NCBI RefSeq assembly: GCF_025397915.1
Contig: NZ_JALIDZ010000005.1
Coordinates: 310,001 to 374,000, forward strand
DNA: 64,000 nucleotides
Origin: Microbaculum marinisediminis
GTDB lineage: Bacteria > Pseudomonadota > Alphaproteobacteria > Rhizobiales > Tepidamorphaceae
Direction of reading: 5' to 3'
Part shown: one piece after another, positions 40,796 to 58,087 of the stretch
Layout: each line of letters opens with the position of its first letter
How positions within the stretch are numbered: the stretch's first letter is position 1
Translations under genes and position numbers: made by a program
Notes under the pieces: generated by a model
Databases searched by the model: none
What the model was told of the DNA's origin: nothing
What the model saw: only the letters and a program-made list of their open reading frames with translations

Positions 40796-40814
40796 CGCGG
40801 CATTTTTTGCCGCG
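40796..40814. promoter_or_regulatory. Putative FlbD-type enhancer (ftr-like) for flgE
   Basis: Perfect inverted repeat CGCGGCA-TTTTT-TGCCGCG. It matches the CGGCA-N5/6-TGCC pattern also found near flgI (53257-53291) and sits 83 bases upstream of the flgE sigma-54 element. That is enhancer distance for a FlbD-like activator. It is also just upstream of the moxR start, so a role as a hairpin in that region is not excluded. Confidence 0.5.
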
Positions 40815-40896
40815 ACGGGGAATTTCTTCCGCGTCGGATACGGGTTCGCTGACCGGGGTTCTCGATAAGTCTTTGAATTTATTGATGTCGTCATGC

Positions 40897-40912
40897 TGGC
40901 ACGGCGATTGCT
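40897..40912 (+). promoter_or_regulatory. Sigma-54 promoter of flgE operon
   Basis: TGGCACGGCGATTGCT fits the sigma-54 consensus TGGCACG-N4-TTGCT at every specified base, with GG and GC ten bases apart. Transcription would begin about 12 bases after the GC, giving a leader of roughly 55 bases before the flgE ATG at 40980. Confidence 0.88.
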
Positions 40913-40979
40913 GCCCGTGCCTACGAATGGGTGCGGCCGGTTGGGCCGAACTCCGCGTATTCCATCGGAGGGATGAGCT

Positions 40980-42353
40980 ATGGGTATCTATGGGGCGCTG
41001 GCGACGGCGGTGTCGGGGCTGAAGGCGCAGTCGTTCGCGCTCGAGCACGTGTCCGGCAACATCGCCAATTCTCAGACGGTCGGCTTCAAGCGGACGGAGA
41101 CGACGTTCGCCGACCTGGTGCCGGATTCCCCGTACTACAAGCAGCTCGCCGGCGGCGTTCAGGTGTTCACCCGGGCGACCAACAACGTGCAGGGCGATAT
41201 CCGTGCCGCCGAAGTGCCGACCTTCATGGGGATCAACGGCGACGGCTTCTTCATCGTTGAGCAGCGTGCCGACATGGCCGACGGCAACCCGGTGTTCGGC
41301 GGCGTCGACTACTACACGCGCCGGGGCGACTTCGAGTTCGACCGCAGCGGCTACCTGGTCAACGGCGCGGGCAACTACCTGAAGGCAATCCGCGTCGACC
41401 CGCAGACCGGCAACCTCGTCGGCAGCCTGCCGGAACCGGTGCGCATCACCAACGACTTCCTGCCGGCTCAGGCCACGTCGCAGATCGACCTGCGCGCCAA
41501 CCTCTCGTCCTATCCGATGACGACCGCCGCGGATCCGGACATCCCGGACAGCGAGCTGCTGAATCCGGCCGACTACAACAACAACCCGACCGCGGGCGCC
41601 GACGGGCTCATCCAGGGCCAGGACGTCTCGACCTTCCTGGACCAGTCGATCTCGGGCAGCGCGATCACCGTCTACGACTCCGCCGGCGCGCCGGTGAACA
41701 TCCAGATGCGCTGGGCGAAGACCGACAATACCAACGGCGGCGGCTCGGATACCTGGAACCTGTTCTATCAGGTGGATTCCAACGCGACCGGCACCGACAC
41801 CGCCTGGCTCAATGTCGGGCAGGACTACGTCTTCAACTCCTCCGGCCAGCTCACGCCCGATATCGCGCAGGTGAACCTGACCGGCGTGACGGTGAACGGC
41901 GTGAACGTGGGCGACATCACCCTCAAGCACGGCGTCAACGGCATCACCCAGTTTGCCGACTCCAACGGCAACGCGCAGGTTACGGAGCTCAGGCAGAACG
42001 GCTATGCCGCCGGCGAGCTGGTCGGCGTGTCGATCTCGGAAGCCGGGCGTATCGTGGCGAGCTACACCAACGGCCGCACCGTCGATCTCTACGAAGTGCG
42101 GCTGGCGTCCTTCAATGCCGAGAACCGGCTGCAGAAGATGGACGGCGGCACCTATGCGGTGACCCAGGACTCGGGCCCGGCGATCCTCGGGGCGCAGGGC
42201 TCCATCATCGGCGCCTCGGTGGAAAGCTCGAATACCGACATCGCCGACGAATTCACCAAGCTGATCGTCACGCAGCAGGCCTACGCCGCCGGCACCCGCA
42301 TCGTCACGACCAGCAACGAGATGCTCCAGGAAGTGCTCAACATGATCCGCTGA
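40980..42353 (+). CDS. flgE: Flagellar hook protein FlgE
   Basis: 457 residues. Subunit of the flexible hook. N-terminal rod/hook motif GIYGALATAVSGLKAQSFAL and NIANSQTVGFKRTETTFADL; the GDGFFIVEQ block begins the D1 domain; the C-terminal heptad region NTDIADEFTKLIVTQQAYAA and TTSNEMLQEVLNMIR completes the coiled-coil export/assembly end. GGAGGG lies 9 bases before the ATG. First gene of flgE-flgK-flgL under a textbook sigma-54 promoter. Confidence 0.95.
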   Translation: MGIYGALATAVSGLKAQSFALEHVSGNIANSQTVGFKRTETTFADLVPDSPYYKQLAGGVQVFTRATNNVQGDIRAAEVPTFMGINGDGFFIVEQRADMADGNPVFGGVDYYTRRGDFEFDRSGYLVNGAGNYLKAIRVDPQTGNLVGSLPEPVRITNDFLPAQATSQIDLRANLSSYPMTTAADPDIPDSELLNPADYNNNPTAGADGLIQGQDVSTFLDQSISGSAITVYDSAGAPVNIQMRWAKTDNTNGGGSDTWNLFYQVDSNATGTDTAWLNVGQDYVFNSSGQLTPDIAQVNLTGVTVNGVNVGDITLKHGVNGITQFADSNGNAQVTELRQNGYAAGELVGVSISEAGRIVASYTNGRTVDLYEVRLASFNAENRLQKMDGGTYAVTQDSGPAILGAQGSIIGASVESSNTDIADEFTKLIVTQQAYAAGTRIVTTSNEMLQEVLNMIR

Positions 42354-42432
42354 CGCGGATCGTCAGTGCGGGCCCGGCACCGGCCGGGTCCGACCGTTCC
42401 CCCCGATCGCTCCCCAGGAGGCGGCAGGCACA

Positions 42433-44583
42433 ATGGGACTCTACGGCGTACTCGGATCGGCGCTTTCGGGCCTGCGGGTGACGCAGGCCGGGCTCGACGT
42501 CGTCTCGCGCAACGTCTCCAACGCCGATACCCCCGGCTATACCCGCAAGACGCTCGAACGCTCGACGATGGTCGTCGGCAGCAACGTCACGGGCATCCGC
42601 ATCGGCGACATCGTGCGCGACGTGGATTCGCTGGTGCAGCGGCAGCTGCGGCTGGAGAACAGCGGCGCCGGGTATGTCCGCATCCTCAAACAGTACTACG
42701 ACCAGCTCGACCTGATGCTGGGCGAACCCGGCTCGGCGAACGGGGTCGACACGCTGTTCAACACCTTCCGTTCGTCGATGGAGGCGCTGGCGACCAGTCC
42801 GGACTCCTTCATCGCGCGCGAGCAGGCGCTGCGCGACGCGCAGGTTCTCGCCGGCAACCTGAACCAGCTGTCGTCCGACATCCAGGCGATGCGGCTGGAG
42901 GCCGAGCGCGGCATCGGCGACGCGGTGCAGCGGGCCAACGAGCTGCTGGGCAAGATCGCCAAGATCAACATGGACATCGGCAGCCGCGACCAGCTCGAGT
43001 CGCCGCCGGCAGACCTGCTCGACATCCGCGACGGCTATATCTCCGAGCTCAGCGAACTGATGGACATCCAGGTGATGGAGCGCGAGCGCGGCACCGTCAG
43101 CATCATGACGAAGTCGGGGACGATGCTGCTCGACCTGTTGCCGGTGGAGCTGCAATTCGATCAGCGCGGCTCCATGACGCCGCAGTCGCTCTACTCCGAC
43201 GACCCGGCCGAGCGCGGCGTCGGCACGATCCGGATCGTGTCGCAGAACGGCGCGGTGCTCGATCTCATCGAGAACAATCAGATCCGCTCAGGCAAGATCT
43301 CGGCCCTGCTGGAGCTGCGCGACGAGTTCCTGGTCGACGCCCAGGCCCAGCTCGACGTCCTGGCCGAAGCGCTGGCGCGCTCTCTGTCGGGACGCACCGT
43401 CGACGGCACCGCGACCACGGTCGGCACCCAGGACGGCTTCGATGTCGACCTGACCGGGATCCAGTCCGGCGACCGGGTCAACCTGACGCTGGCGACGCAG
43501 CCCGGCGGGGCCGAGCAGACCTACACGATCATCCGGGTCGACGACCCGGCGAGCCTGCCGCTCGACAACAGCGTCACGGCCGATCCCAACGACATCGTCA
43601 TCGGCGTCGACTTCTCGGGCGGCTACGCGTCCGTCGCGGCGCAGCTCAACGCCGCGCTGGGCCCGCAGGTCGACGTCTCGGCGCCGGGCGGCAACGTGCT
43701 GCGGTTCCTGGACGACGGCGACGCGACCGCGAACTCGACCGGCTCGCTCTACGGCGCCGACGGCTCGACGCTGAACCTGGCCGGCCTCAACGGCGAAGCC
43801 CTGACGATCAACGTCAACGGCGTCGACAACGTCTTCAACTTCGGCCCGGCGACGACGGGGCAGGACCTGCAGTCGTGGCTGGACGGTCTGCCCGGCATCG
43901 GCGCGACGATCGCCGCGGGCGATCTCGTCATCACCGGAGATACGCCGGCCGACGGCTTCTCCATCACCTTCTCCAATCCGTCCGTCGGGACGGCGACGGG
44001 GTTGTCCGAGGGGTCGTTCAACACCTCCGCGATCACGTCCGTGGACGCGTCGATCACCAACACGGCACTGGACGGCAACGGGCTCGCGATCCCGCTCTTC
44101 GTCGATGGCGGCAGCCCCTATACCGGGCGCCTGGAGGGTATGCCCCAGCGCATCGGCTTCGCCGGCCGCATCTCCGTCAACGCGGCGCTGCTGGCCGACA
44201 ACACGAAGCTGGTCCAGTACGGCGCCGGGATCGAGATCGGCGATCCCGCGCGTCCCCTCGACATGCTGCGGCGCCTCACGCAGATGCAGATCACCTTCCC
44301 GGCGGAGACCAAGGTGGCGGGGTCGACGCCGTATACCGGCACGGTCTCCGGCTTCGTCCAGCGCATCATCTCCTATCAGGGGGCGATCGCGCAGGACGTG
44401 AGCCAGGCGACCGAAGCCCAGGAGACGGTGGTCGCCCAGCTCGAGGAGCGGTTCACGTCGCGGTCGGGCGTCAATATCGACCAGGAAATGGCCCACCTGA
44501 TCGAGCTGCAGACGGCGTATCAGGCCAACACCCGTCTGATCACGGCGTTCCGTGAGATGATGGACCTACTGATGAGGATGTAG
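42433..44583 (+). CDS. flgK: Flagellar hook-associated protein 1 FlgK
   Basis: 716 residues, hook-filament junction protein. The N-terminus GLYGVLGSALSGLRVTQAGL with NVSNADTPGYTRKTLERSTM is diagnostic, and the C-terminus NIDQEMAHLIELQTAYQANT plus FREMMDLLMRM is the standard FlgK end. The middle third (about residues 330-560) is a large Asp/Gly/Thr-rich beta region, longer than in enteric FlgK (about 550 residues). Strong AGGAGG upstream. It follows flgE by 79 bases, probably in one operon. Confidence 0.95.
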   Translation: MGLYGVLGSALSGLRVTQAGLDVVSRNVSNADTPGYTRKTLERSTMVVGSNVTGIRIGDIVRDVDSLVQRQLRLENSGAGYVRILKQYYDQLDLMLGEPGSANGVDTLFNTFRSSMEALATSPDSFIAREQALRDAQVLAGNLNQLSSDIQAMRLEAERGIGDAVQRANELLGKIAKINMDIGSRDQLESPPADLLDIRDGYISELSELMDIQVMERERGTVSIMTKSGTMLLDLLPVELQFDQRGSMTPQSLYSDDPAERGVGTIRIVSQNGAVLDLIENNQIRSGKISALLELRDEFLVDAQAQLDVLAEALARSLSGRTVDGTATTVGTQDGFDVDLTGIQSGDRVNLTLATQPGGAEQTYTIIRVDDPASLPLDNSVTADPNDIVIGVDFSGGYASVAAQLNAALGPQVDVSAPGGNVLRFLDDGDATANSTGSLYGADGSTLNLAGLNGEALTINVNGVDNVFNFGPATTGQDLQSWLDGLPGIGATIAAGDLVITGDTPADGFSITFSNPSVGTATGLSEGSFNTSAITSVDASITNTALDGNGLAIPLFVDGGSPYTGRLEGMPQRIGFAGRISVNAALLADNTKLVQYGAGIEIGDPARPLDMLRRLTQMQITFPAETKVAGSTPYTGTVSGFVQRIISYQGAIAQDVSQATEAQETVVAQLEERFTSRSGVNIDQEMAHLIELQTAYQANTRLITAFREMMDLLMRM

Positions 44584-44588
44584 ACGGC

Positions 44589-46100: not shown

Positions 46101-46168
46101 CGCCCGGGTCTCAGCGGCGGGTCCTGCCGCGTTTGCAGCGCTGACGTCGTCTGCCTTCTGAAACGAAA

Positions 46169-46191: not shown

Positions 46192-46271
46192 GCGATAGAT
46201 CTTCGGAGAAGGAAAGCGTCGATTTTCCCGACTTCGGCGCATTCTGCAGCTCCCCTATGGCTGGGACCGTA

Positions 46272-46640
46272 TCAGCTCGTGGCGCGCAGTCCGGCGGCCA
46301 GCTCGCGGTTGATCGAGATCAGCGAGGGCACCTTTTCCGGGCGTGGGTTGGTCTGAAGATCGATGGTCTGATTGAAGATGAACAGCGACAGATTGGCGAT
46401 GTTCTGCTTGACCTGATGCGGAAGCGGGTTTTCCGGCTTCGTGGCGGAGGTGGCGAAGATCGTCCAGAGGCGGCGGTTGAACGTCAGTGCCTCGTCCAGC
46501 TCGGGCTTCCGGTTCGGCCAATCGTCGCAAACACGCTGGAGCTTTGCCGCGGCTTTTATGAGCAGGTCTGCCTCGAGATCACGCGGGCTGCTCGTTTTCT
46601 GGGCTGTGCTGGCGTACAGCTGCGCCGCCGAATTTTGCAT
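46272..46640 (-). CDS. flaF: Flagellar biosynthesis regulator FlaF
   Basis: 122 residues, all-alpha. The core SSPRDLEADLLIKAAAKLQR, then LDEALTFNRRLWTIFATSAT and NIANLSLFIFNQTIDLQTNP match FlaF of rhizobia and Caulobacter, an activator or chaperone of flagellin synthesis that opposes FlbT. The start at 46640 makes a 62-base out-of-frame overlap with the 3' end of flbT; no later Met would keep the conserved N-terminus, so the overlap appears real. Confidence 0.93.
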   Translation of the reverse strand: MQNSAAQLYASTAQKTSSPRDLEADLLIKAAAKLQRVCDDWPNRKPELDEALTFNRRLWTIFATSATKPENPLPHQVKQNIANLSLFIFNQTIDLQTNPRPEKVPSLISINRELAAGLRATS

Positions 46641-47016
46641 GTTCCAGTAGTTCCTCTTCGTACTCGATTAGCGCCTTGGCTTCGCGAAGAGCTTTGTAAA
46701 GAAATCCAGTTAAGATCTGATTATTGATCCGGTCCACGTAGGGCAGCGTGCTTGGTGCCGCCCGGACGACATCGTTCACCAGTTCAAAGTAGATGTCGTG
46801 GCGTGACTGGGTCTCGCCGTCCAGATACATGACCTGAACGGCAAGGTAGATCCGCTTGGCCGGCGTGTCGGCCGTCTCCGGAGTCAGGATGTCCTTTTCC
46901 CGCAGGATGGGAATGTCGCCCTCGATATACAGCCGGGAGCGTTGGCCGCCATTGGTGATCACGGCGGTGCCGAGAATAAACCGTTCGCCGGGCTTCAGCT
47001 CGACCTTGAGCGCCAT
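46579..47016 (-). CDS. flbT: Flagellin mRNA regulator FlbT
   Basis: 145 residues. LKVELKPGERFILGTAVITN at the N-terminus, LYIEGDIPILREKDILTPET and KRIYLAVQVMYLDGETQSRH are conserved FlbT blocks. In Caulobacter FlbT binds flagellin leader mRNA and limits its translation until hook completion. It lies 113 bases after the first flagellin gene on the same strand. Its end overlaps flaF by 62 bases, with the flaF ribosome site inside flbT codons. Confidence 0.94.
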   Translation of the reverse strand: MALKVELKPGERFILGTAVITNGGQRSRLYIEGDIPILREKDILTPETADTPAKRIYLAVQVMYLDGETQSRHDIYFELVNDVVRAAPSTLPYVDRINNQILTGFLYKALREAKALIEYEEELLEHAKFGGAAVRQHSPENEQPA

Positions 47017-47080
47017 CGTCGTGCCTCGCGCTTTGTTTCGGGTGCGAAGAATCGCTTTTGCAGATTACCCGAAAAGAAAA

Positions 47081-47102
47081 CGGCGGGACCGAGGCCCCGC
47101 CG
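47081..47102 (-). terminator. Terminator-like hairpin after first flagellin gene
   Basis: Stem CGGCGGGACC / GGCCCCGCCG with one A-C mismatch and a short loop; on the minus strand it is followed by TTTTCTTTTC. It lies between the flagellin stop (47130) and flbT start (47016), so it may stabilise flagellin mRNA while allowing some readthrough. Confidence 0.65.
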
Positions 47103-47129
47103 CCGCAACCGTGAAAAGCCGGGCCGGCG

Positions 47130-48680
47130 TCAGAACAGGCGGAGCACCGCCTGGTCGGCCTCGGAGGCCAGGGACAGCGCGACCGAGGAGAGCTGCTGGC
47201 GGGTCTGCAGGGCCAGCATGTTGGCGCCTTCCTCGTTGGTGTCGGCGAGCACCAGGTTGTCGGCGCCGGTCTCCAGCGTGTTCTTCATCGCCTTTGTGAA
47301 GTCCTGGCGGTTCTCGACCATCGAAAGGTTGGAACCAAGCGCGGACGACTGCGAGCGGATCGCATCGAGCGCCGCGCCGACATCGGCGATGATGGCGTCG
47401 ATGGCGGCGTCGCTGTCCAGATCGACGGAATCAAGAGACGTCAGGCCGAGGTTGTAGGAATTGATCGCCTTGCCGTCCTTGGTCTGGATGTTCAGCGTCG
47501 ACGTGCCGGTCTCGTTGAAGCTGATCTTCAGATTGTCGCCGCGCAGCAGGTTGACGCCGTTGAACGAGGAATCGTCGGCCAGCTTGTCGAGCTGGTCGCG
47601 CAGCAGGTTGTACTGCGTGGCGAATTCGGTGCGGACCGCATTGCCGCCGATCGTTCCGGTCCCCGCACCGCCATCAACGATGCCGGCGGGTGTCAGGCCG
47701 GCTACGTCGAGTTCCTGCGTCGACTGGTTCTCGATGCGCAGCCTGCCGTTGTCGTTCGACGCGCGGATCTTGCTGTCGAGCGCGCTGTTCATGTTGATCT
47801 CGTCCACGAGGGCGTCGACCGATTTGGCGATCGGGGTGCTGGTGGAGCCGGCGCCGCCGGCCAGGCCGGAGTCGCTGGCGCCGGCAAGGGTCTCGGCGAC
47901 ATTCGTCACCGCGACGGCCGCGAGGCCCGTGTCGGCGATGACGTCGGACGTCAGCACCAGTTCGCCGCCGGACGTGCTGGCGGTGATGTCGACGTCATTG
48001 GCGGCAAACCCGGCATTGAGGAGATCCTGCAATTCCGTCGCCGAAACGGCCTCGACGTCGGCGACGTCGAGCGTCGTGGCGGCACCGCCGTCGACCGATA
48101 CGCTGAGTGTGTCGGCATCGACCGCGGTGATCGCGATCGAGCGGGTGCCGCCGCCGTTGATGGCGACGTCGAAGCCGAGCGAGCCGGCGTAGCTGTTGTC
48201 GGCGGCGCTGTCGAAGTCGAGGGCGGCGAAACCGGCGCCGGTGAAGATGCCCTGGGCCCCCGTCAGTTCGATATCGACGGCGGTCGCGCCGATCGCGCCG
48301 CCGGAGAAGGACATGGTCTCGGTGCCGGCTGGGGTGGCGCCCAGGTCGACGGCGTAGGACATGGTCTTGAACGACTTGTCCTGACGGGCCTGACGCAGGG
48401 TTGATTGCATCGATTCCAGGTTCCTGGTGATCGACGTCAGGCCGTTGTCGGCCGCCTCCAGCGTCTTGACGCCGTTCGACATGGAATCGAGCAGCGCCGA
48501 GAGTTCGTTGGCGCGGGTCTGCAGCGAGGCCGAGGTAAAGAAGTTGGTCGGGTTGTCGAGGGCCGAGTTGACCTTCTTGCCGGTGGCAAGACGGTGCTGC
48601 GTCGTGGCCATCAGATCGGCGGTTTTCTGCAGCGAGAGCAGGTTCTGCCGCACGCCCGTGGACAGGGTAATGTCAGACAT
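47130..48680 (-). CDS. fliC: Flagellin A (proximal to flbT)
   Basis: 516 residues, filament subunit. The conserved D0/D1 N-terminus has LSTGVRQNLLSLQKTADLMA, ATGKKVNSALDNPTNFFTSA and LTSITRNLESMQSTLRQARQ; the C-terminus has NLVLADTNEEGANMLALQTR and SLASEADQAVLRLF. About 280 residues of Ala/Asp/Gly/Thr-rich beta domain lie between. It has the same length as the neighbouring flagellin with no visible indel; differences concentrate in the central domain. The 237-base upstream gap holds inverted repeats but no sigma-54 match. Confidence 0.95.
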   Translation of the reverse strand: MSDITLSTGVRQNLLSLQKTADLMATTQHRLATGKKVNSALDNPTNFFTSASLQTRANELSALLDSMSNGVKTLEAADNGLTSITRNLESMQSTLRQARQDKSFKTMSYAVDLGATPAGTETMSFSGGAIGATAVDIELTGAQGIFTGAGFAALDFDSAADNSYAGSLGFDVAINGGGTRSIAITAVDADTLSVSVDGGAATTLDVADVEAVSATELQDLLNAGFAANDVDITASTSGGELVLTSDVIADTGLAAVAVTNVAETLAGASDSGLAGGAGSTSTPIAKSVDALVDEINMNSALDSKIRASNDNGRLRIENQSTQELDVAGLTPAGIVDGGAGTGTIGGNAVRTEFATQYNLLRDQLDKLADDSSFNGVNLLRGDNLKISFNETGTSTLNIQTKDGKAINSYNLGLTSLDSVDLDSDAAIDAIIADVGAALDAIRSQSSALGSNLSMVENRQDFTKAMKNTLETGADNLVLADTNEEGANMLALQTRQQLSSVALSLASEADQAVLRLF

Positions 48681-48760: not shown

Positions 48761-48818
48761 AACCTCTTGTAGAGGTTGGTAAAGAATTACGGTTAACAAG
48801 TTCTTATCCGGCCGGATA
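48761..48818. promoter_or_regulatory. Inverted repeats in leader/promoter region of flagellin A
   Basis: AACCTCT-TGT-AGAGGTT (48761-48777) is a perfect 7-bp hairpin and TATCCGGCCGGATA (48805-48818) is a perfect 14-base palindrome. Both lie 80-140 bases upstream of the flagellin A start. They could be regulator sites or, for the first, an mRNA leader structure relevant to FlbT. Neither has a counterpart upstream of flagellin B that I can see. Confidence 0.4.
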
Positions 48819-48867
48819 CCGGACCGCGCGAGAAGGGAAATCGGGGGAAGGAAAAGCCATAAAAAAA

Positions 48868-48891
48868 GCGGCGGGGCCGAGGCCCCGCCGC
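48868..48891 (-). terminator. Rho-independent terminator of flagellin B gene
   Basis: Perfect 10-bp stem GCGGCGGGGC / GCCCCGCCGC with loop CGAG, followed on the minus strand by seven T. It lies 27 bases after the flagellin B stop. A strong intrinsic terminator, so the two flagellin genes are mostly separate transcripts. Confidence 0.92.
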
Positions 48892-48917
48892 CAGTAACGG
48901 TCGTCCCTGAGAAGGGA

Positions 48918-50468
48918 TCAGAACAGGCGGAGCACCGCCTGGTCGGCCTGCGAGGCCAGGGACAGAGCGACCGAGGAGAGCTGCTGGCGCGTCTGCAGGG
49001 CCAGCATGTTGGCGCCTTCCTCGTTGGTGTCGGCCAGCACCAGGTTGTCGGCGCCGGTCTGGAGCGTGTTCTTCATCGACTTGGAGAAGTCCTGACGGTT
49101 TTCGACCATGGACAGGTTCGAACCGAAGGACGACGACTGCGAACGGATCGTGTTCAGAGCGTCGGACACCGTCGACAGGAGCGAGTCGATGTTGGCGTCA
49201 CTGTCCAGATCCGCGGCTTCGATCGACATCAGGCCGAGATTGGCGGAGTTGATCGTCTCGCCATCCTTGGACTGGATGTTGAGCGTCGACGTTCCGGTCT
49301 CGTTGAAGTTGATCTTCAGGTTGTCGCCGCGCAGCAGGTTGACACCGTTGAACGAGGAGTCGTCCGACAGCTTGTCGAGCTGGTCGCGAAGCAGGTTGAA
49401 CTGCGTCGCGAGGTCGGACCGGACACCATTGCCGCCGATCGTCGCCGTGCCGGAGCCGCCGTCGACGATGGCACCCGCCGAAGCGCCGGTGATGGTCAGC
49501 TCCTGCGTCGACTGGTTCTCGATGCGCAGCTTGCCGTTGTCGTTCGACGCACGGATCTTGTCGGTCAGGCCGGCGTTGCCGTTGATTTCATCGACCAGCA
49601 GGTCGACCGACTTGGCGGATACCGTGCCGAGGCTGCCGGCGCCGCCGGCGAGACCGGAATCACTGGCACCGGCCAGGGTCTCGGCGACATTGGTCACCGC
49701 GACGGCGGCCGTGCCGGCGTCACTGGCCGTGTTGGACGTGAGCACCAGCTCACCGCCGTCGGTGCTGGCGGTGATGTCGACGTTGTTGGCGGCGAAGCCC
49801 GCGTTGAGCACGCTCTCCAGTTCCGTCGAGGTGACGGCCTCGACGTCGGCAACGTCGACGTTGGTCGCCGCGCCGCCGTCGACGGTGATGGCGAGGGTGT
49901 CGGCGTCGACCGCGGTGATCGAGATCGACTGGGCCGTGCCGCCATCGACGGCGACGTCGAAGTCGAGCGTGCCGGCGTAGCTGTTGTCAGCCGCGCTGTC
50001 GAAGTCGAGGGCGGCGAAGCCGGCGCCGGTGAAGACACCCTGGGCTTCGGTCAGGTCGATATCGACGGCCGTCGCGCCGACGGAACCGCCGGAGAACGAC
50101 AGGGTCTCGGTGCCGGCCGGGCTGGCGCCCAGGTCGACATTGTAGGACGTGGTCTTGAACGACTTGTCCTGACGCGCCTGACGCAGGGTCGACTGCATCG
50201 ACTCGAGGTTCTTGGTGATCGAGGTCAGGCCGTTGTCGGCGGCTTCCAGGGTCTTCACGCCGTTCGACATGGAGTCGAGCAGGGACGACAGATCCGACGC
50301 GCGGGTCTGCAGCGAGGCCGAGGTGAAGAAGTTGGTCGGGTTGTCGAGGGCCGAGTTGACCTTCTTGCCGGTGGCAAGACGGTTCTGCGTGGAGGCCATC
50401 AGGTCGGCGGTTTTCTGCAGCGAGAGAAGATTCTGCCGCACGCCAGCGGACAGGGTAATGTCAGCCAT
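48918..50468 (-). CDS. fliC: Flagellin B (tandem paralogue)
   Basis: 516 residues. N- and C-terminal D0/D1 regions are nearly identical to flagellin A (for example FKTTSYNVDLGASPAGTET against FKTMSYAVDLGATPAGTET). The central domain carries more substitutions but keeps length and blocks such as FTGAGFAALDFDSAADNSYA and AVTNVAETLAGASDSGLAGG. No Cys. AAAAGGAT precedes the ATG. It arises from a tandem duplication. Upstream (50469-50601) I find no sigma-54 element; an inverted TAACCG/CGGTTA pair is present. Confidence 0.95.
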   Translation of the reverse strand: MADITLSAGVRQNLLSLQKTADLMASTQNRLATGKKVNSALDNPTNFFTSASLQTRASDLSSLLDSMSNGVKTLEAADNGLTSITKNLESMQSTLRQARQDKSFKTTSYNVDLGASPAGTETLSFSGGSVGATAVDIDLTEAQGVFTGAGFAALDFDSAADNSYAGTLDFDVAVDGGTAQSISITAVDADTLAITVDGGAATNVDVADVEAVTSTELESVLNAGFAANNVDITASTDGGELVLTSNTASDAGTAAVAVTNVAETLAGASDSGLAGGAGSLGTVSAKSVDLLVDEINGNAGLTDKIRASNDNGKLRIENQSTQELTITGASAGAIVDGGSGTATIGGNGVRSDLATQFNLLRDQLDKLSDDSSFNGVNLLRGDNLKINFNETGTSTLNIQSKDGETINSANLGLMSIEAADLDSDANIDSLLSTVSDALNTIRSQSSSFGSNLSMVENRQDFSKSMKNTLQTGADNLVLADTNEEGANMLALQTRQQLSSVALSLASQADQAVLRLF

Positions 50469-51961: not shown

Positions 51962-51963
51962 CG

Positions 51964-53121
51964 TCACATCACCTCGATGTCGGCCTGCAGCGAGCCGGAC
52001 GTCTTGATCGCCTGAAGGATCGAGATCAGGTCGCGCGGCCCGACACCGAGCGCGTTCAGCCCGTCGACCAGTTGCTGCAGGCTGACGCCGCCGTCGACGA
52101 TCGCCATGCGGTTGCCGGACTGGTCGTCTACCGTGATCTGGGTGCGCGGAACCTCGACGGTCTCCGCCCCGAACGGCGCGAACGCGCCCGGCTGGCTGAC
52201 TTCCGGCGTCTCGGTGATGGTGACCGTGAGGTTGCCCTGGGCGACGGCGACGGTGGAGACGCGCACGTCCTTGCCCATGACGATGATCCCGGAATTCTCG
52301 TCGATGACCACGCGGGCGGGCTGATCGGGATCGACGCGGAGTTGCTCGATATCGGTCAGAAGCGAGACGATGTCGCTGGAATACTTGCCCGACATGCGGA
52401 TCTGGACGGTCGCCGGGTCGGTCGCCTCGGCTGTGCCGGGGCCGATATAGTCGTTGATGCTCTGGGCGATCCGCGTGGCCGTCGTCAGATCCGGATTGCG
52501 CAGGGCCAGGCGCAGGCTGGCGAGCTGGGAAAGCTCGAAGTCGATTTCGCGCTCGATCAGGGCGCCGTTGGCGATGCGCCCGCTGGTCGGGACGCCCCGT
52601 GTGACCTGGGCGGCCTCGCCCTCGACGTTGAAGCCGGCGACGGCGACCGGTCCCTGGGCGACCGCGTAGACCTCGCCGTCGGCGCCCAGCAGCGGCGTCA
52701 CCAGCAGGGTGCCGCCCTGCAGGTTGGTCGAATCGCCGAGCGTGGAGACGGTGACGTCGATGCGGCTGCCGTGGGTAGAAAACGCCGGCAGATTGGCCGT
52801 GACCATGACCGCCGCGACGTTTTTCGTGCGGAGCTGCGCGTCGCGGGTGTTCATGCCCAGCCGTTCCAGCATCGCCTGCAGGCTTTGCAGGGTGAAGGGC
52901 GAGTTGTTCAGCGTGTCGCCGGTGCCGTTCAGGCCGACGACAAGGCCGTACCCGATCAACTGGTTCTCGCGAACGCCTTCGATGTCGACCAGGTCCTTGA
53001 TCCGCGAGGATGCCAGAGCCGGCGGCGGCGCACAGAGCGCCGCGGCGACCGCGACGGCCGTCGCCAGGCGAAGGCCGCGTGAGAAAACTGACCGTAAATT
53101 CTTAACGCGCGGGATCACCAC
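51964..53121 (-). CDS. flgI: Flagellar P-ring protein FlgI
   Basis: 385 residues with a signal peptide (LRLATAVAVAAALCAPPPAL). Forms the P ring in the peptidoglycan layer. Diagnostic blocks: RIKDLVDIEGVRENQLIGYG, LVVGLNGTGDTLNNSPFTLQ, LGMNTRDAQLRTKNVAAVMV and the C-terminal ALGVGPRDLISILQAIKTSG. Starts at GTG 53121 with GGGGAG upstream. First gene of flgI-flgJ-flgN, divergent from fliX, with a sigma-54 element about 34 bases upstream of the start. Confidence 0.95.
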   Translation of the reverse strand: MVIPRVKNLRSVFSRGLRLATAVAVAAALCAPPPALASSRIKDLVDIEGVRENQLIGYGLVVGLNGTGDTLNNSPFTLQSLQAMLERLGMNTRDAQLRTKNVAAVMVTANLPAFSTHGSRIDVTVSTLGDSTNLQGGTLLVTPLLGADGEVYAVAQGPVAVAGFNVEGEAAQVTRGVPTSGRIANGALIEREIDFELSQLASLRLALRNPDLTTATRIAQSINDYIGPGTAEATDPATVQIRMSGKYSSDIVSLLTDIEQLRVDPDQPARVVIDENSGIIVMGKDVRVSTVAVAQGNLTVTITETPEVSQPGAFAPFGAETVEVPRTQITVDDQSGNRMAIVDGGVSLQQLVDGLNALGVGPRDLISILQAIKTSGSLQADIEVM

Positions 53122-53154
53122 ACTTGCTCCCCTTCAGCAATCCTCCAACTAGAA

Positions 53155-53170
53155 AGCCAGATCCGTGCCA
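53155..53170 (-). promoter_or_regulatory. Sigma-54 promoter of flgI
   Basis: On the minus strand the sequence reads TGGCACGGATCTGGCT. It fits TGGCACG-N4-TTGCT with one change, and GG and GC are the required ten bases apart. The predicted start of transcription is near 53145, about 24 bases before the GTG of flgI. Confidence 0.8.
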
Positions 53171-53256
53171 AGCAATCGCGGTTCGGGAAAACGCTGTAAA
53201 GGTATGGAATCTCGAGGGTTTTGAGTTCGTGTCGCAGGCGTTCGCCGTTAAGGTTC

Positions 53257-53291
53257 CGGCAAGAACTTGCCGCCGCCCGGCAAATTCTGCC
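53257..53291. promoter_or_regulatory. Paired ftr-like sites between fliX and flgI
   Basis: CGGCAAGAACTTGCCG (53257-53272) is a perfect inverted repeat with a 2-base centre; CGGCAAATTCTGCC (53278-53291) is a related imperfect one. They lie 87-121 bases upstream of the flgI sigma-54 element and 76-110 upstream of fliX. In Caulobacter such ftr sites bind FlbD, activating sigma-54 promoters and repressing early ones. FlbD itself is not in this window. Confidence 0.6.
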
Positions 53292-53297
53292 CATGCG

Positions 53298-53316
53298 TTA
53301 AGGTGCCGTTAACCAT
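53298..53316 (+). promoter_or_regulatory. CtrA-type site upstream of fliX
   Basis: TTAA (53298-53301), seven bases, TTAAC (53309-53313) matches the full CtrA consensus TTAA-N7-TTAAC, and the right half extends to TTAACCAT. It is 50 bases upstream of the fliX ATG. Early (class II) flagellar genes are under CtrA control in Caulobacter. Confidence 0.78.
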
Positions 53317-53366
53317 GGCTGGTGAGATTTGGCCGTGGCTGGAGCAAAGGGGGGAGGCTTCGATTC

Positions 53367-53786
53367 ATGCGTATCGACGGACCCGGAGGGGCGGGCCAGA
53401 TCAAGCGTCCGCGGGGCGGTGCGAAGAGCGATCGGTCAACGAACGTCTTTTCGTTCTCCCAATCGGAGCGTTCGGAAACCGCGACCGGAGCCGCCGCATC
53501 GGGACCGATCGGCGGCATCGACGCGTTGCTGGCGCTTCAGTCGGTGGAGGAGCCGGGGGGGCGCGGACCGCGGCTCAAGCACGGCCACGACATGCTCGAC
53601 CTGCTCGACGACATCAAGATCGCCTTGCTCGCGGGTGACGTACCGGCCGCCAAGCTGCAGAGCCTGGTCGATACCGTGGGGCGCCGGCCCGACCGGTATG
53701 GCGACGAGCGCATCGAGTCGGTGCTCGACGAAATAGAGCTTCGCGCCCGCGTCGAGCTTGCGAAATTGGGGCGTGAAGCGGCCTGA
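53367..53786 (+). CDS. fliX: Flagellar assembly trans-acting factor FliX
   Basis: 139 residues. The N-terminus MRIDGPGGAGQIKRPRGGAK is disordered and basic; the conserved part is GGIDALLALQSVEEPGGRGP, HDMLDLLDDIKIALLAGDVP and VLDEIELRARVELAKLGREA. FliX links completion of the early basal body to FlbD activity. The ATG at 53367 with GGGGAGG 10 bases upstream is preferred over an earlier in-frame ATG. Divergent fliX/flgI is the same arrangement as in Caulobacter. Confidence 0.92.
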   Translation: MRIDGPGGAGQIKRPRGGAKSDRSTNVFSFSQSERSETATGAAASGPIGGIDALLALQSVEEPGGRGPRLKHGHDMLDLLDDIKIALLAGDVPAAKLQSLVDTVGRRPDRYGDERIESVLDEIELRARVELAKLGREAA

Positions 53787-53956
53787 TATCCGGCGATTGC
53801 CCCTAACCCGCTGAAACCACGGCCGAAAGCAGGGCGGATCGTACTACCGCGCGAATTAAGTCACATTACAATCTTGTCATCGACGACTTGTTGTAAGCGG
53901 CCCTGTCAGCGGTTATAAGGGCGCCCGTTATCGACGGACCCTAAAGGGAATCGCCG

Positions 53957-54367
53957 ATGGTTGGCGTAAGAGACTACCGCCCTACTACCAAAGAGCCTTT
54001 CATGAACGAGAGGCAGCGCGAGTACTTCCGTGCAAAACTGCTTGCATGGAAGGAAGAGATTCTGCGTGAAAGCCGCGAGACGCTGAACCAGCTCCAGGTC
54101 GACAGCCAGAATCACCCTGATTTGGCCGACCGTGCGTCTTCGGAGACGGATCGGGCCATCGAGCTGCGGGCTCGCGACCGCCAGCGTAAGCTGATCGCCA
54201 AGATCGATGCCGCGCTCAAGCGGATCGATGAGGGGACCTACGGCTATTGCGAGGAAACCGGCGAGCCGATCAGCCTCAAGCGGCTTGATGCAAGGCCGAT
54301 CGCGACCTTGTCGATCGAGGCGCAGGAGCGTCACGAACGGCGCGAGCGTGTCTATCGCGACGACTGA
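53957..54367 (+). CDS. dksA: DksA-type RNA polymerase-binding factor lacking most zinc cysteines
   Basis: 136 residues. Binds the RNA polymerase secondary channel and, with ppGpp, retunes promoters. The N-terminus YRPTTKEPFMNERQREYFRA supports the start at 53957; the coiled-coil tip region has DRASSETDRAIELRARDRQR. In the zinc-finger region only Cys98 remains (GYCEETGEP); the other three ligand positions are Thr101, Ser and Ala (ARPIATLSIEAQE). Loss of ligands is common in alphaproteobacterial DksA, so it should still fold. Embedded among flagellar genes but with its own terminator. Confidence 0.93.
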   Translation: MVGVRDYRPTTKEPFMNERQREYFRAKLLAWKEEILRESRETLNQLQVDSQNHPDLADRASSETDRAIELRARDRQRKLIAKIDAALKRIDEGTYGYCEETGEPISLKRLDARPIATLSIEAQERHERRERVYRDD

Positions 54368-54394
54368 TTAAACTCAGTCTCCAAAGAAACTGAA

Positions 54395-54427
54395 AAACGC
54401 CTCCGGCCACTGGTCGGGGGCGTTTTT
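54395..54427 (+). terminator. Rho-independent terminator of dksA
   Basis: Long stem AAACGCCTCCGGCC / GGTCGGGGGCGTTT with G-T wobbles and a small loop, followed by a run of T on the plus strand (GCGTTTTTTG). It begins 28 bases after the dksA stop. Confidence 0.9.
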
Positions 54428-54445
54428 TGTGCGTGGAAAAGAAAG

Positions 54446-54476
54446 GGCGCGGTCCCGGGGGAGCTGGGACCGCGCC
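54446..54476 (-). terminator. Rho-independent terminator of flgH operon
   Basis: Perfect 11-bp stem GGCGCGGTCCC / GGGACCGCGCC with a 9-base loop; on the minus strand it is followed by TTTCTTTTCC. It lies 30 bases after the flgH stop and ends flgF-flgG-flgA-flgH. Confidence 0.85.
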
Positions 54477-54505
54477 GATTGGCCGTTCTGTCAGATGGGG
54501 GAGCG

Positions 54506-55276
54506 TCAGAACGGCAGGATGATGTCCAGGAACTGTTGCCCGTAGGGAGGCTGCTGGACATCGGTAATCTGGCCGCGTCCGCCGTAGGAGATGCGGGCCT
54601 CGGCGATCTTGGTCGAATCGACCGTGTTGTTGGCGGTGATGTCTTCGGGACGGATCACGCCGGCCACGATCAGTTCCCGCATCTCGAAGTTGACGCGGAC
54701 CTCCTGGCGTCCCTCGATCACCATGTTGCCGTTGGGCAGGACCTGGGTGACGACGGCGGCCAGGTTCGTGCGCAGCTCTTCCTTGCGGTTAACCGAGCCT
54801 TCACCGGTGGTGGCGGTGTCGCCGTTGAGGTCGATGACGGCGCTGCCGGTCTTGTAGTCGTCGGGGATCAGGTCGAGGAACGCGTTGCCCGCCGCGCCCG
54901 AAATGTCGCGCCCCCCCGAGGCGATGCGGCTGCGCTCGGTCTTGTTGTCGAAGATGGCCTTGTCGGAGAAGATGACCTCGACCGTGAGAATGTCTCCGAC
55001 CCCCTTGGCGCGCTGATCCTTGAAGAAGGCGCGGGCGCCGGACCGCCACAGGGAGTTGGAGCTGAACACCGGCGGCTCGGGGTCGGGCATCGGCATCGAC
55101 ACGGGACGATAGCCGGCCACCGCCGTCGGGTTCTCGATCGCCGACAGGTAGGGCGGCTTGTTGATCTGGGCGATCTTGTCGGCGGTGCTGGAGCAGCCCG
55201 CGGCGGCGGCGCCGAGGATGCCGATCGCGGCGAGGCGTCCGATGTCTCGGAATGTCCGGTTCGTTACGCGCGTCAT
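54506..55276 (-). CDS. flgH: Flagellar L-ring lipoprotein FlgH
   Basis: 256 residues. Lipoprotein signal with lipobox (GILGAAAAGC) near residue 28, so anchored in the outer membrane, where it forms the L ring. Conserved blocks: SLWRSGARAFFKDQRAKGVG, DILTVEVIFSDKAIFDNKTE, NLAAVVTQVLPNGNMVIEGR, ELIVAGVIRPEDITANNTVD and ARISYGGRGQITDVQQPPYG. GAGGGAGAG upstream supports the ATG at 55276. Follows flgA by 25 bases. Confidence 0.95.
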   Translation of the reverse strand: MTRVTNRTFRDIGRLAAIGILGAAAAGCSSTADKIAQINKPPYLSAIENPTAVAGYRPVSMPMPDPEPPVFSSNSLWRSGARAFFKDQRAKGVGDILTVEVIFSDKAIFDNKTERSRIASGGRDISGAAGNAFLDLIPDDYKTGSAVIDLNGDTATTGEGSVNRKEELRTNLAAVVTQVLPNGNMVIEGRQEVRVNFEMRELIVAGVIRPEDITANNTVDSTKIAEARISYGGRGQITDVQQPPYGQQFLDIILPF

Positions 55277-55301
55277 GAAACTCTCCCTCAGGACCGGCAT
55301 G

Positions 55302-56285
55302 TCAGCGGACGGTGGTCGGCAGCGACGCCACCGGAACCCGCTGCGGCAGGACGGTGACGAAGCCGGGACCGCTGATCTCGGCCTCGACGGTCCGCTTCGA
55401 CTGAATGTTGAAAACCTGGATGACCTCGCCGCGCGCGCCGGCCGACAGGGCCCGTCCGCGGGTGGTCAGCGTCAGCCCGGGCGTGCGGTAGATGATCGTC
55501 ACCAGGTCGCCGCGATGGACCAGAATCGGCTCCATCAGCAGGTCGGCGGTCAGCGGCACGCCGTCGCGAAGGTGCCGGCGGGCGGACATCCCGGTGAGCC
55601 GGTCGGCGTCGACGATCATCTCCGAGCGCACGGCGCTGCGGGGCAGGCGGTCGATGACGATGTCGCGCGGGCTGATCACCTCGCCGCGCTCCAGGGCGCG
55701 CGCCAGGACCGGGACCTCGATGATCTCGACCGCGCGGCCGGAGAACCGCAGGCCGGTGCCCGCGGCGCGGCTGTCGGCGACCGCCAGAAGGGCGGCGAAA
55801 CGGCCGGTCGCCGGATCGTATTCGAGCTTGTCCACGCTCAGCGGCGCCATGGCGGACTGCTCGACGACGATCGGCTGCTCGAACCGGTCGAGGGTCACGT
55901 CGATGTCCTCGGGCCGGTCGCCGCGTCCCGTCTCGACGATATGGCGCGTGATCGCCTGCACGATCTCGTCGCTGGCGATCGCGCGGCCGAGCCGGCTGAC
56001 CGACACCGAATCGAGGCCGCCGGTATCCAGGCCGGCCAGACCCTGGGCCTGGGCCGCCGTGAGGATCCGATCGACGCGGACGGTGCCGGCGGTGCCAAGG
56101 TCCGGCGCCCGGAAGACCGCGATGCCGGAGGCCGCGCCGGCGCCGTCGATCAGGTCGCCGAGTGTCACGAGCGGACCGTGCACGGTCACCTGAGCCTTCA
56201 ACCGGGGCTGTTCGGCCCCCATCGCCGGCAGGGCGAACACGGCGACCGCAAGCGCGGCGCCGACGACGAGCGTGCGTATGATCAT
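55302..56285 (-). CDS. flgA: P-ring assembly chaperone FlgA
   Basis: 327 residues with a signal peptide (IIRTLVVGAALAVAVFALPA). Periplasmic chaperone for FlgI. The C-terminal SAF-like domain is visible as LARALERGEVISPRDIVIDR, GMSARRHLRDGVPLTADLLM and GDLVTIIYRTPGLTLTTRGR, closing with VIQVFNIQSKRTVEAEISGP. An N-terminal extension of about 170 residues is longer than in enteric FlgA. Lies between flgG and flgH on the same strand, a common alphaproteobacterial order. Confidence 0.94.
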   Translation of the reverse strand: MIIRTLVVGAALAVAVFALPAMGAEQPRLKAQVTVHGPLVTLGDLIDGAGAASGIAVFRAPDLGTAGTVRVDRILTAAQAQGLAGLDTGGLDSVSVSRLGRAIASDEIVQAITRHIVETGRGDRPEDIDVTLDRFEQPIVVEQSAMAPLSVDKLEYDPATGRFAALLAVADSRAAGTGLRFSGRAVEIIEVPVLARALERGEVISPRDIVIDRLPRSAVRSEMIVDADRLTGMSARRHLRDGVPLTADLLMEPILVHRGDLVTIIYRTPGLTLTTRGRALSAGARGEVIQVFNIQSKRTVEAEISGPGFVTVLPQRVPVASLPTTVR

Positions 56286-56302
56286 GATCCGTCCCCTTCG
56301 CG

Positions 56303-57088
56303 TTAGCGCATGCTCGCCGTCGACGACATCATTTCGTCGGCGGCGGTGATGACGCGGGAGTTCATCTCGTAGGCGCGCTGGGCGGCGATCAGATCGGAGA
56401 TCTCGGAGACCGGATTGACGTTGGCCTGCTCGAGATAGCCTTGCTGCAGCATGCCGTAGCCGTCGAGGCCGGGCGTGCCGACCTGTTCGGGACCGCTCGA
56501 CGGCGTCTCCAGGAAGAGGTTGTCGCCCATGGCTTCCAGGCCCGCCGGATTGACGAAGCGGACCAGGTCGATGTTGCCGAGGTCGACGGGATCGGTGTCC
56601 GTCGAGACGAAGGCCTGGATCAGCCCCTCGGAGTTGATCGAGACACCGCGGGCGTCGTCGGGGATGGTGATGCCGGGCTCGATGACATAGCCGTCGACGG
56701 TGACCAGCTGGCCGAGCGAGTCGCGTTCGAACGAGCCGTCGCGCGAATAGGCGGTGCGGCCGTCGGGCAGGCGGACGCGGAAGAAGCCTTCGCCGCGGAT
56801 GGCGACGTCCAGTTCCTTCTCCGTCATGGTGATGTTGCCCTGGCTCATCACCCGCGGCGTGGCGGCCGTCTTGACGCCGCCGCCGATCTCGATGCCGGTG
56901 GGGACGATGGTTCCGGTATCCGACGTCGAGGCGCCGGGCCGGCGCAGGTTCTCGTAGAGGAGATCCTGGAAATCGGCCCGCTGGCGCTTGAAGCCGGTGG
57001 TGCGCATGTTGGCGATGTTGTTGGAGATCACTTCGACGTTGAGCTCCTGGGCCATCATGCCGGAAGCCGCGATATGAAGTGCTTTCAT
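56303..57088 (-). CDS. flgG: Flagellar distal rod protein FlgG
   Basis: 261 residues, the standard FlgG length. N-terminal KALHIAASGMMAQELNVEVI and SNNIANMRTTGFKRQRADFQ, FlgG-specific DLLYENLRRPGA and LGNIDLVRFVNPAGLEAMGD, GYLEQANVNPVSEISDLIAA near the end, and TADEMMSSTASMR. Builds the distal rod through the P and L rings encoded by flgI and flgH. Follows flgF by 39 bases. Confidence 0.96.
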   Translation of the reverse strand: MKALHIAASGMMAQELNVEVISNNIANMRTTGFKRQRADFQDLLYENLRRPGASTSDTGTIVPTGIEIGGGVKTAATPRVMSQGNITMTEKELDVAIRGEGFFRVRLPDGRTAYSRDGSFERDSLGQLVTVDGYVIEPGITIPDDARGVSINSEGLIQAFVSTDTDPVDLGNIDLVRFVNPAGLEAMGDNLFLETPSSGPEQVGTPGLDGYGMLQQGYLEQANVNPVSEISDLIAAQRAYEMNSRVITAADEMMSSTASMR

Positions 57089-57127
57089 GGCGTGTTCCTT
57101 TTCAAGTCCAGTGGCGGTGGCCGGTCA

Positions 57128-57868
57128 TTACTGAATGACGGCCAGCACGCTGATGGCGTTGCGGCGCATGTCGTCCATGCGTTCGAGCATGGAGGACAGC
57201 GAGGTATAGGCGCGGGTTACCTCGATCATCCGGGTCATCTCGACGATCGGCTGGACGTTCGAGCCTTCGACCATGCCCTGGCGCACGGTGGCGTCGTTGG
57301 CGGTCTGCGGCTGGACCGGTGCGGAGAACAGGCTGGAGCCCTCCGGCTGCAGAATGGCGTCGTCGTCGAAGACGGCGACCCGCAGGCGGCCTTTCTCGCC
57401 GGCCTTCGTGGAGACCGTTCCGTCGGCGGCGATGGCCACGGCACCGTCGCGCTCGTCGAAGGTGATCACGCCGCCGTCGCCCATCACCCGGTGACCTTCG
57501 GCGGTGACCAGCGCGCCTTCGTTGTCGAGCAGGAACGCGCCGTTGCGCGTGTAGCGCTCGCCGGCCGGCGTCTGGACCACGAACCAGCCTTCGCCGTCGA
57601 TGGCGACGTCGAGCGGATTGCCGGTCTGCTGTATCGGTCCGGGCGCGAAGTCCTGCAGCGTGCCGCGGTCGATGACATAGGAGATGTCCCGATCGCCGGG
57701 CAGGGCGTCGGACGCCTCCGCCTTGGGCATCAGGTATTCCTCGAAAAGCACGTCGGACGATTTGAATCCGCCGGTTTCGAGATTCGCCAGATTGTTGGCG
57801 ATGACGTCCATCTGACGCCGCAGGGCGACCTGCCGCGACAGGGATACGAGTAGGGTATTGTCTTGCAT
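57128..57868 (-). CDS. flgF: Flagellar proximal rod protein FlgF
   Basis: 246 residues. MQDNTLLVSLSRQVALRRQM and DVIANNLANLETGGFKSSDV form the rod N-terminal helix; NPLDVAIDGEGWFVVQTPAG is the D1 start; VEGSNVQPIVEMTRMIEVTR and the terminal MRRNAISVLAVIQ complete it. The ATG at 57868 is chosen because the upstream in-frame extension lies in the promoter region. First gene of flgF-flgG-flgA-flgH, with a sigma-54 element 67 bases upstream. Confidence 0.95.
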   Translation of the reverse strand: MQDNTLLVSLSRQVALRRQMDVIANNLANLETGGFKSSDVLFEEYLMPKAEASDALPGDRDISYVIDRGTLQDFAPGPIQQTGNPLDVAIDGEGWFVVQTPAGERYTRNGAFLLDNEGALVTAEGHRVMGDGGVITFDERDGAVAIAADGTVSTKAGEKGRLRVAVFDDDAILQPEGSSLFSAPVQPQTANDATVRQGMVEGSNVQPIVEMTRMIEVTRAYTSLSSMLERMDDMRRNAISVLAVIQ

Positions 57869-57934
57869 CGTTGCACCATTGGTTGCTCCCCCGAGCGAAC
57901 GCCGCACGGTGCCGTGGGTGTTCACCGGTCATTA

Positions 57935-57950
57935 AGCATACGGTGTGCCA
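57935..57950 (-). promoter_or_regulatory. Sigma-54 promoter of flgF operon
   Basis: Minus-strand TGGCACACCGTATGCT has TGGCAC, GG and GC ten bases apart, and differs from the consensus downstream element TTGCT only at its first base (ATGCT); the seventh base is A instead of G. It lies in the 311-base divergent flgF-fliL gap, which has no other gene. Confidence 0.72.
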
Positions 57951-58005
57951 ACTCCGGAAAGTGAATGAAAACAATGGGATGAGAATTTTCGTCGGCGCCA
58001 GAGCC

Positions 58006-58043
58006 CGGCAATTTTGGGGCCGGCCGGCAACGACGGGCGGCAA
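58006..58043. promoter_or_regulatory. Three direct CGGCAA half sites between flgF and fliL
   Basis: CGGCAA occurs at 58006, 58025 and 58038 in the same orientation. It is the half site seen in the ftr-like palindromes at flgI. The three lie 56-93 bases upstream of the flgF sigma-54 element and just upstream of the fliL CtrA half site. They could be enhancer contacts for a FlbD-like activator; the evidence is weaker than at flgI and flgE. Confidence 0.4.
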
Positions 58044-58079
58044 TAATTTCCCACCCCGGCCGGGTTTGGAAACTTTTCG

Positions 58080-58087
58080 TTAACCAT
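58080..58087 (+). promoter_or_regulatory. CtrA half site upstream of fliL
   Basis: TTAACCAT, the same extended half site as at fliX, 92 bases upstream of the fliL start. The seven-base-spaced left half is degenerate (GAAA). The fliL-fliM promoter of Caulobacter is a classic CtrA target, which supports the assignment. Confidence 0.6.

Follow-up and report, generated by a model that had tools for sequence, protein, structure and literature searches.

This report concerns the transcriptional control of a flagellar gene cluster in a 64 kb stretch of the 5.11 Mb draft genome of Microbaculum marinisediminis (contig NZ_JALIDZ010000005.1); "the window" refers to this whole stretch. Genes in the window with Pfam matches are flgE, flgK, flaF, flbT, two flagellin genes, flgI, fliX, dksA, flgH, flgA, flgG, flgF, fliL and fliM. 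A gene called flgL-like from its position alone lacks a Pfam match; flgE, flgK and this gene follow a promoter box in that order. The closest named relatives by FlgI are metagenome-assembled genomes labelled Tepidamorphus, at 90% and 82% identity, which places the organism most likely within the Hyphomicrobiales. Taken together, the promoters of these genes point to a Caulobacter-type flagellar hierarchy in which the flagellin tier has quite likely been moved to CtrA. The genes on which the argument turns are as follows.

40980..42353, plus strand: flgE, hook protein (Pfam match)
46272..46640, minus strand: flaF, flagellin biosynthesis regulator (PF07309, 1.9e-32)
46579..47016, minus strand: flbT, flagellin biosynthesis repressor (PF07378, 7.4e-42)
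47130..48680, minus strand: flagellin gene fliC1 (PF00669/PF00700)
48918..50468, minus strand: flagellin gene fliC2 (PF00669/PF00700)
51964..53121, minus strand: flgI, P-ring (PF02119, 5.1e-139)
53367..53786, plus strand: fliX, FlbD partner protein (PF10768, 8.5e-36; family match begins at 53367)
57128..57925, minus strand: flgF, heading flgF-flgG-flgA-flgH (profile match)
58180..58683, plus strand: fliL, first gene of the fliL-fliM unit (PF03748)

A first-pass annotation of this DNA had proposed sigma-54 elements ahead of flgE, flgI and flgF. A scan with an approximate sigma-54 matrix found conserved boxes at all three places, each scoring at least 12.5 bits; nothing else in the window reaches that score.

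40897..40912, plus strand: sigma-54 -24/-12 box of flgE, TGGCACGGCGATTGCT
53170-53155, minus strand: sigma-54 box of flgI, TGGCACGGATCTGGCT, with TGGC replacing TTGC at -12
57950-57935, minus strand: sigma-54 box of flgF, TGGCACACCGTATGCT

The boxes are credible because of their position and their conservation in relatives. The comparison within Hyphomicrobiales used 80 related loci plus the window, giving 81 flgI loci; the relatives were checked for FliX, and the presence of RpoN, FlbD and CtrA was established for the window's genome. A box of at least 11 bits precedes flgI in 79 of the 81 loci, window included, the misses being L031, which has no upstream sequence, and L105, which scores 10.1 bits. 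The median best score upstream of flgI was 14.6 bits, compared with 4.5 bits in shuffles (80 loci). For flgF, 27 of 28 scanned rows reached at least 13.3 bits; after removal of L068, which is the flgE of that locus, and L109, a contig-end fragment without upstream sequence, all 26 genuine upstreams reached at least 13.5 bits. For flgE, 20 of 26 rows were dropped because the alignment, beginning at residue 6, had picked up paralogous rod genes, and all six genuine upstreams, window included, reached at least 13.3 bits; L046 is a genuine flgE with just 40 bases of upstream sequence. Beyond the order, a flgI box was present in 36 of 40 genomes of a class-wide sample, drawn from 126 genomes with a FliX match and consisting mostly of the best of that list. 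The control upstreams of 72 fliX, 26 fliL, 42 flbT, 28 flgK and 30 flgH genes all stayed below 14 bits, and one of 30 flgG upstreams reached that score. Elsewhere in the window's genome, the region upstream of fliK carries a sigma-54 box together with an ftr palindrome (L010:17335 and 17399). Putative sigma-54 boxes precede hook, rod and ring genes.

The -12 element of the flgI boxes departs from consensus in a conserved manner. Among the 36 box-bearing genomes of the class-wide sample, 34 have TCGC instead of TTGC, as do 63 of 79 Hyphomicrobiales loci, where another 5 have TTGT. The -12 elements of flgE and flagellin boxes are mostly TTGC or NTGC. The conserved off-consensus -12 may set the strength of the flgI promoter.

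Upstream of two of the boxes lie ftr-type palindromes, putative binding sites for FlbD, in agreement with the annotated CGGCA-N5/6-TGCC palindromes at the flgE and flgI promoters.

40798..40812, no strand: ftr-type palindrome CGGCATTTTTTGCCG, 99 bp upstream of the flgE box; L031 and L032 share the -99 position
53278..53292, no strand: ftr-type palindrome CGGCAAATTCTGCCC in the flgI-fliX gap, 122 bp upstream of the flgI box, its centre 20 bp from a CtrA-type site

In 54 of 79 flgI loci, the palindrome [CG]GGCA-N5-TGCC precedes the box by 87-123 bp, and an ftr site lies upstream of the box in four of six flgE loci (window included) and 20 of 26 genuine flgF upstreams; flgF rows L096, L046 and L060 were unusable in this comparison. 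A further palindrome, with an N6 spacer, lies at 53257-53272 and has no counterpart within 220 nt in the 78 other box-bearing flgI loci. The distances between ftr sites and sigma-54 boxes showed no single helical phase by eye. In the window's genome, ftr sites lie upstream of the boxes at flgE, flgI and fliK.

The first-pass annotation had described this hierarchy as present with no regulatory gene in the window, which is incorrect, as FliX, FlbT and FlaF are all encoded there. It had also proposed a search of the genome for rpoN, flbD and ctrA. All three are present, as is fliX, so the hierarchy is not refuted on this ground. There is a single RpoN, with three sigma-54 domains in Pfam. FlbD scores 816.1 bits against the NCBIfam FlbD equivalog model (cut-off 750), combines an AAA+ sigma-54 domain with a Fis-type helix-turn-helix, and is encoded between flhA and fliN-fliH-fliG-fliF. 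Pfam reported no receiver domain in it at E 0.001; Caulobacter FlbD likewise has a strongly diverged receiver and is governed by FliX (PMC3930126, PMC3096577). CtrA scores 427.4 bits against its NCBIfam model (cut-off 350) and is 83% identical to a Caulobacter CtrA reference sequence. Nine further response regulators resemble CtrA over most of its length, making ten matches with CtrA itself. SciP, by family name a CtrA inhibitor, is encoded at L010:14600-14887 on the minus strand, directly upstream of the fliF-flbD-flhA genes, and the gap between sciP and fliF holds a TTAA-N8-TTAA-like site and half an ftr. For genes outside the window, fliO, fliK and flhA, like the neighbours of flbD, were named from translations, fliG and fliP by Pfam, and flgB by a rod-domain match. 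No FliA above cut-off was found in the genome, where the four weaker sigma-factor matches all fall short of the 189.6-bit cut-off, the strongest scoring 109 bits; a sigma-28 flagellin tier was rejected for this genome on that basis.

Early, class II genes carry CtrA-type sites. The two that the annotation had reported in the window, a full site before fliX and a half site before fliL, were both recovered.

53298..53312, no strand: full CtrA-type site TTAA-N7-TTAA of fliX, one in the window against a shuffle mean of 0.0
58080..58085, plus strand: CtrA half site TTAACC upstream of fliL

A site within one mismatch of the full CtrA motif lies within 140 nt of fliL in 13 of 19 rows, the window not being among them. 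Full-type sites also precede the flgB and fliO/fliP units, and fliF has only a site with one extra base. Between the divergent flgB and fliO-like genes (the latter followed by fliP) at L159:10284-10431, two full CtrA-type sites and two ftr palindromes are arranged in mirror symmetry, each palindrome centred 24 bp downstream of its CtrA-type site. This is the placement expected if FlbD represses early promoters, a role suggested by analogy with Caulobacter (PMC3930126, PMC3096577).

The gap between flgI and fliX contains both kinds of site. An ftr palindrome and a CtrA-type site (one mismatch allowed) occur together in 55 of 79 loci; their centres are 17-20 bp apart in 53 pairs, exactly 20 in 40 of these, and 14 other pairs within 70 bp have other distances; the loci are related, so these spacing counts are not independent. 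Both sites were found in 14 of the 40 class-wide genomes, with 12 pairs at 27-31 bp, one at 18 and six at 47-62. The main spacings in the order and in the class differ by about one helical turn. The palindrome at 53278..53292 possibly serves both flgI and fliX, and we propose that the gap acts as a two-way switch. Adjoining fliX is dksA (53957-54367, plus strand), where a match to an overlapping reading frame recurs in many of the listed relatives.

The flagellin genes differ from this pattern. They were compared as a set of 117 genes from 71 loci, window included, selected for having a match at the N terminus and 300 nt of upstream sequence; 118 upstreams were extracted, one being a second start of the same gene, and the shuffle rates of 0.59% for sigma-54 and 0.3% for the CtrA-type box refer to the 118. 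Across the 117 upstreams no sigma-54 box reached 12.5 bits, so that at the level of the promoter box there is no sign of sigma-54/FlbD dependence in this set. In contrast, a class-wide sample of 60 flagellin genes from 53 genomes that also have FliX contained such a box within 300 nt of 38 genes, in 35 genomes. The raw count at 12.5 bits or more was 39 of 60 (36 genomes), one box at or beyond the start codon being dropped; the sample was hand-picked among the top-scoring matches listed, and flagellins with weak scores, among them those of the order to which the window belongs, are absent from it.

In place of a sigma-54 box, many Hyphomicrobiales flagellins carry a CtrA-type site. The strict box TTAAC-N6-TTA is present in 49 of 117 upstreams (shuffle 0.3%) and, counted by locus, in 46 of 71. 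Counts excluding the 24 Bosea loci are 30 of 72 by gene and 27 of 47 by locus. Only five of the 60 class-wide flagellins have the box, two of them beside a sigma-54 box. Under the looser pattern TTAA-N7-TTAA with one mismatch allowed, the counts are 86 of 118 (shuffle 7.2%) versus 13 of 60 class-wide (shuffle 16.5%). When 54 sites are aligned with the first T at -38, columns outside the box are conserved as well, with A in 85% at -11, T in 83% at -7 and G in 61% at -4. Some of these sites are overlapping registers of one promoter; the dereplicated counts for A, T and G are 26, 25 and 16 of 34. The 5' base of full CtrA motifs in Caulobacter lies near -35, and at -39 for two promoters. In mapped CtrA promoters of Rhodobacter sphaeroides, 23-24 nt separate the end of the site from the start, and A stands at -11 and G at -4 (PMC6180460). 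The group of loci as a whole has the geometry of a CtrA-activated sigma-70 promoter, with a TTAA-N7-TTAA-type site near -35 and a -10 element at a fixed distance; the agreement is poorer for the -10 of fliC2 and for fliC1. Sites before both flagellin genes of the window, absent from the first-pass list, are as follows.

50560-50546, minus strand: CtrA-type site TTAACCGACCCTTAG, 92 nt upstream of fliC2, with no sigma-54 box found there
48793..48807, minus strand: CtrA-type site with one mismatch, ATAA-N7-TTAA, 127 nt upstream of fliC1, a weaker case than fliC2

These patterns suggest that the flagellins of Hyphomicrobiales are probably driven by CtrA with sigma-70. The annotation had noted that the two flagellin genes lack a visible sigma-54 element and that the last tier may be wired differently. 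The comparison bears this out and fills the promoters it had left blank with a CtrA-type site and a -10 element. A strong terminator-like hairpin (48892-48867) lies ahead of fliC1, which therefore probably has its own promoter.

Closely similar terminator-like hairpins stand behind each flagellin gene (47079-47104 and 48867-48892), and the fliC1 and fliC2 proteins agree at 421 of 517 positions in an ungapped comparison, stop included; the duplication that gave rise to the pair may include the terminator. Among FliX-bearing genomes elsewhere in the class (L213, L218), one has a flagellin with a sigma-28-like site (G032), and another has a flagellin with a CtrA-type site at about -82 and no sigma-54 box (G184), which suggests that the flagellin tier may switch promoter type repeatedly.

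The genes, the sites, their conservation and the lack of sigma-54 boxes at the flagellins were observed directly, and a mechanism can be proposed from them in which protein binding, the direction of regulation, the start sites and the order of expression are inferred. CtrA would turn on the early genes (fliX, fliL-fliM, flgB and the fliO/fliP units) through TTAA-N7-TTAA-type sites. FlbD, with FliX and RpoN, would then bind the ftr palindromes and fire the sigma-54 promoters of flgE, flgI, flgF and fliK, for hook, rod and P/L rings. Because two early CtrA sites have an ftr site immediately downstream, FlbD may also shut early promoters. The flagellins would stand outside the FlbD tier; in the order they have a CtrA-type box near -38 together with a sigma-70 -10 element, and so are probably transcribed in step with CtrA. 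FlbT and FlaF, retained as a checkpoint, would determine when they are made relative to the hook. A broader proposal goes further, and we regard its chances as even: in FliX-bearing Hyphomicrobiales the flagellins would have been transferred from FlbD/sigma-54 to CtrA/sigma-70, uncoupling filament transcription from hook-basal-body assembly and leaving FlbT/FlaF as the main brake, and the flgI-fliX gap would be a rigidly spaced composite CtrA-ftr switch at which bound FlbD activates flgI and adjusts the expression of fliX, which encodes its partner.

Several observations weigh against a Caulobacter-type hierarchy with CtrA-driven flagellins. The number of sigma-54 matches in the window is not significant by itself (three of at least 12.5 bits versus a dinucleotide-shuffle mean of 1.81); at higher thresholds the counts are two versus 0.29 at 15 bits and one, the flgE box, versus 0.01 at 18 bits. 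Across the genome, the strict pattern TGGCAC-N5-TTGC occurs six times, the flgE box included, below the 12 of a reversed control. The in-window counts being too weak for sigma-54, conservation was used as the test of chance instead. Likewise, CGGCA-N5-TGCC is not enriched genome-wide (172 versus 238 in the reversed control), so single ftr matches mean little and only conserved placement counts; flgF in the window's genome lacks an intact ftr palindrome. The upstreams of flgK, chosen as a negative control (28 loci), had a median sigma-54 score of 7.8 versus 3.9 in shuffles. By name, 24 of the 80 related loci are Bosea, and the counts are therefore not independent. The strict CtrA-type box is missing from 68 of 117 flagellin upstreams. 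Outside its box, the window's fliC2 matches the promoter profile badly: in the common register A falls at -10 rather than -11 and T is missing at -7, G being present at -4. fliC1 has only its one-mismatch site. Finally, no terminator-like site was found between the flgI operon and fliC2, making read-through from the sigma-54 promoter into fliC2 possible.

This last point leads to an alternative that we consider unlikely, namely that the Caulobacter wiring is complete and the flagellins depend on FlbD and sigma-54 through flgI-operon read-through or a degenerate box. The position of fliC2 downstream of flgI on the same strand is consistent with it, and most of the FliX-bearing genomes sampled across the class (35 of 53) have a flagellin with a sigma-54 box. 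In the same Hyphomicrobiales loci, however, flagellin boxes of at least 12.5 bits number 0 of 117, whereas flgI boxes of at least 11 bits number 79 of 81, and the flagellins carry a different conserved promoter. The hairpin ahead of fliC1 also argues against read-through, with the qualification that terminator-like sites in the flagellin stretch are no commoner than in shuffles (4 versus 5.3).

Alternatively, the flagellin box could be read by another OmpR-family regulator, Rem- or FtcR-like, rather than by CtrA, which we judge quite improbable. Rem drives flagellar genes in Sinorhizobium meliloti and other rhizobia (PMC8429497), and the window's genome has nine further response regulators, found by their similarity to CtrA. 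Yet the flagellin box has the same 11-bp-spaced TTAACC repeat as the fliX sites in the same loci, and its promoter geometry equals that of mapped CtrA promoters (PMC6180460). CtrA itself binds the flaA promoter region in S. meliloti (PMC4433202). That such motifs arose by chance in GC-rich DNA and reflect no circuit is extremely improbable: while both genome-wide patterns fall below their reversed controls, the sites are conserved at homologous places across the order, and the flgI box recurs in 36 of the 40 genomes sampled class-wide.

A Caulobacter-type hierarchy with its flagellin tier under CtrA hence remains the best explanation, with every promoter predicted from sequence and conservation. 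The first-pass observation is confirmed and its interpretation partly supported: the scheme of CtrA followed by FlbD and sigma-54 held, on the evidence of the regulators and the conserved sites, as did the suspicion that the flagellin tier is wired differently, and the statement that the window has no regulatory gene did not. Transcription of flagellins late, after the hook, is textbook flagellar logic; if the proposed circuit is correct, the order would be kept mainly by translational control through FlbT and FlaF. It would also be a case where one tier changes promoter class with the rest of the circuit unchanged, in a group with culturable relatives such as Bosea. The FlbD-FliX pair reportedly controls the subpolar flagellum of Bradyrhizobium diazoefficiens (Dardis, 2021), the controlled parts being LP-ring, distal rod and hook. 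A literature search, based mainly on listings of papers and on excerpts and largely without subscription papers, found no published statement of a hybrid circuit with FlbD at the hook and CtrA at the flagellins.

The proposed circuit joins two known wirings and departs from that of Caulobacter in its flagellin tier. With the Caulobacter crescentus hierarchy (PMC3930126, PMC3096577) it shares the regulators CtrA, FlbD/FliX/sigma-54 and FlbT/FlaF, with no FliA over cut-off. In both, hook, rod and ring genes have sigma-54 promoters with ftr sites ahead of the boxes, CtrA sites stand on early genes, and ftr sites lie near early promoters. Flagellins in C. crescentus are RpoN-dependent and under FlbD, whereas across the 71 flagellin loci examined here there is no sigma-54 box at the flagellins, and many have a CtrA-type promoter. 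In this respect the window would resemble S. meliloti, where flaA, flaB and flaC are direct CtrA targets by chromatin immunoprecipitation sequencing and expression, and flaA also by reporter (PMC4433202). S. meliloti differs in that VisNR/Rem, not FlbD/FliX/sigma-54, runs early and middle genes, and its basal structural genes are only indirect CtrA targets (PMC4433202, PMC6180460). The Fla2 system of R. sphaeroides has the CtrA-promoter geometry seen in the flagellin A(-11) and G(-4) here. It differs in that its flgE is CtrA-driven, in contrast to the sigma-54-type flgE promoter of the window, and in having no FlbD in the species presented and no RpoN role, the latter given as unpublished (PMC6180460). 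Direct CtrA control of flagellins is already published for Sinorhizobium, and the circuit proposed here is therefore a variant of a known wiring.

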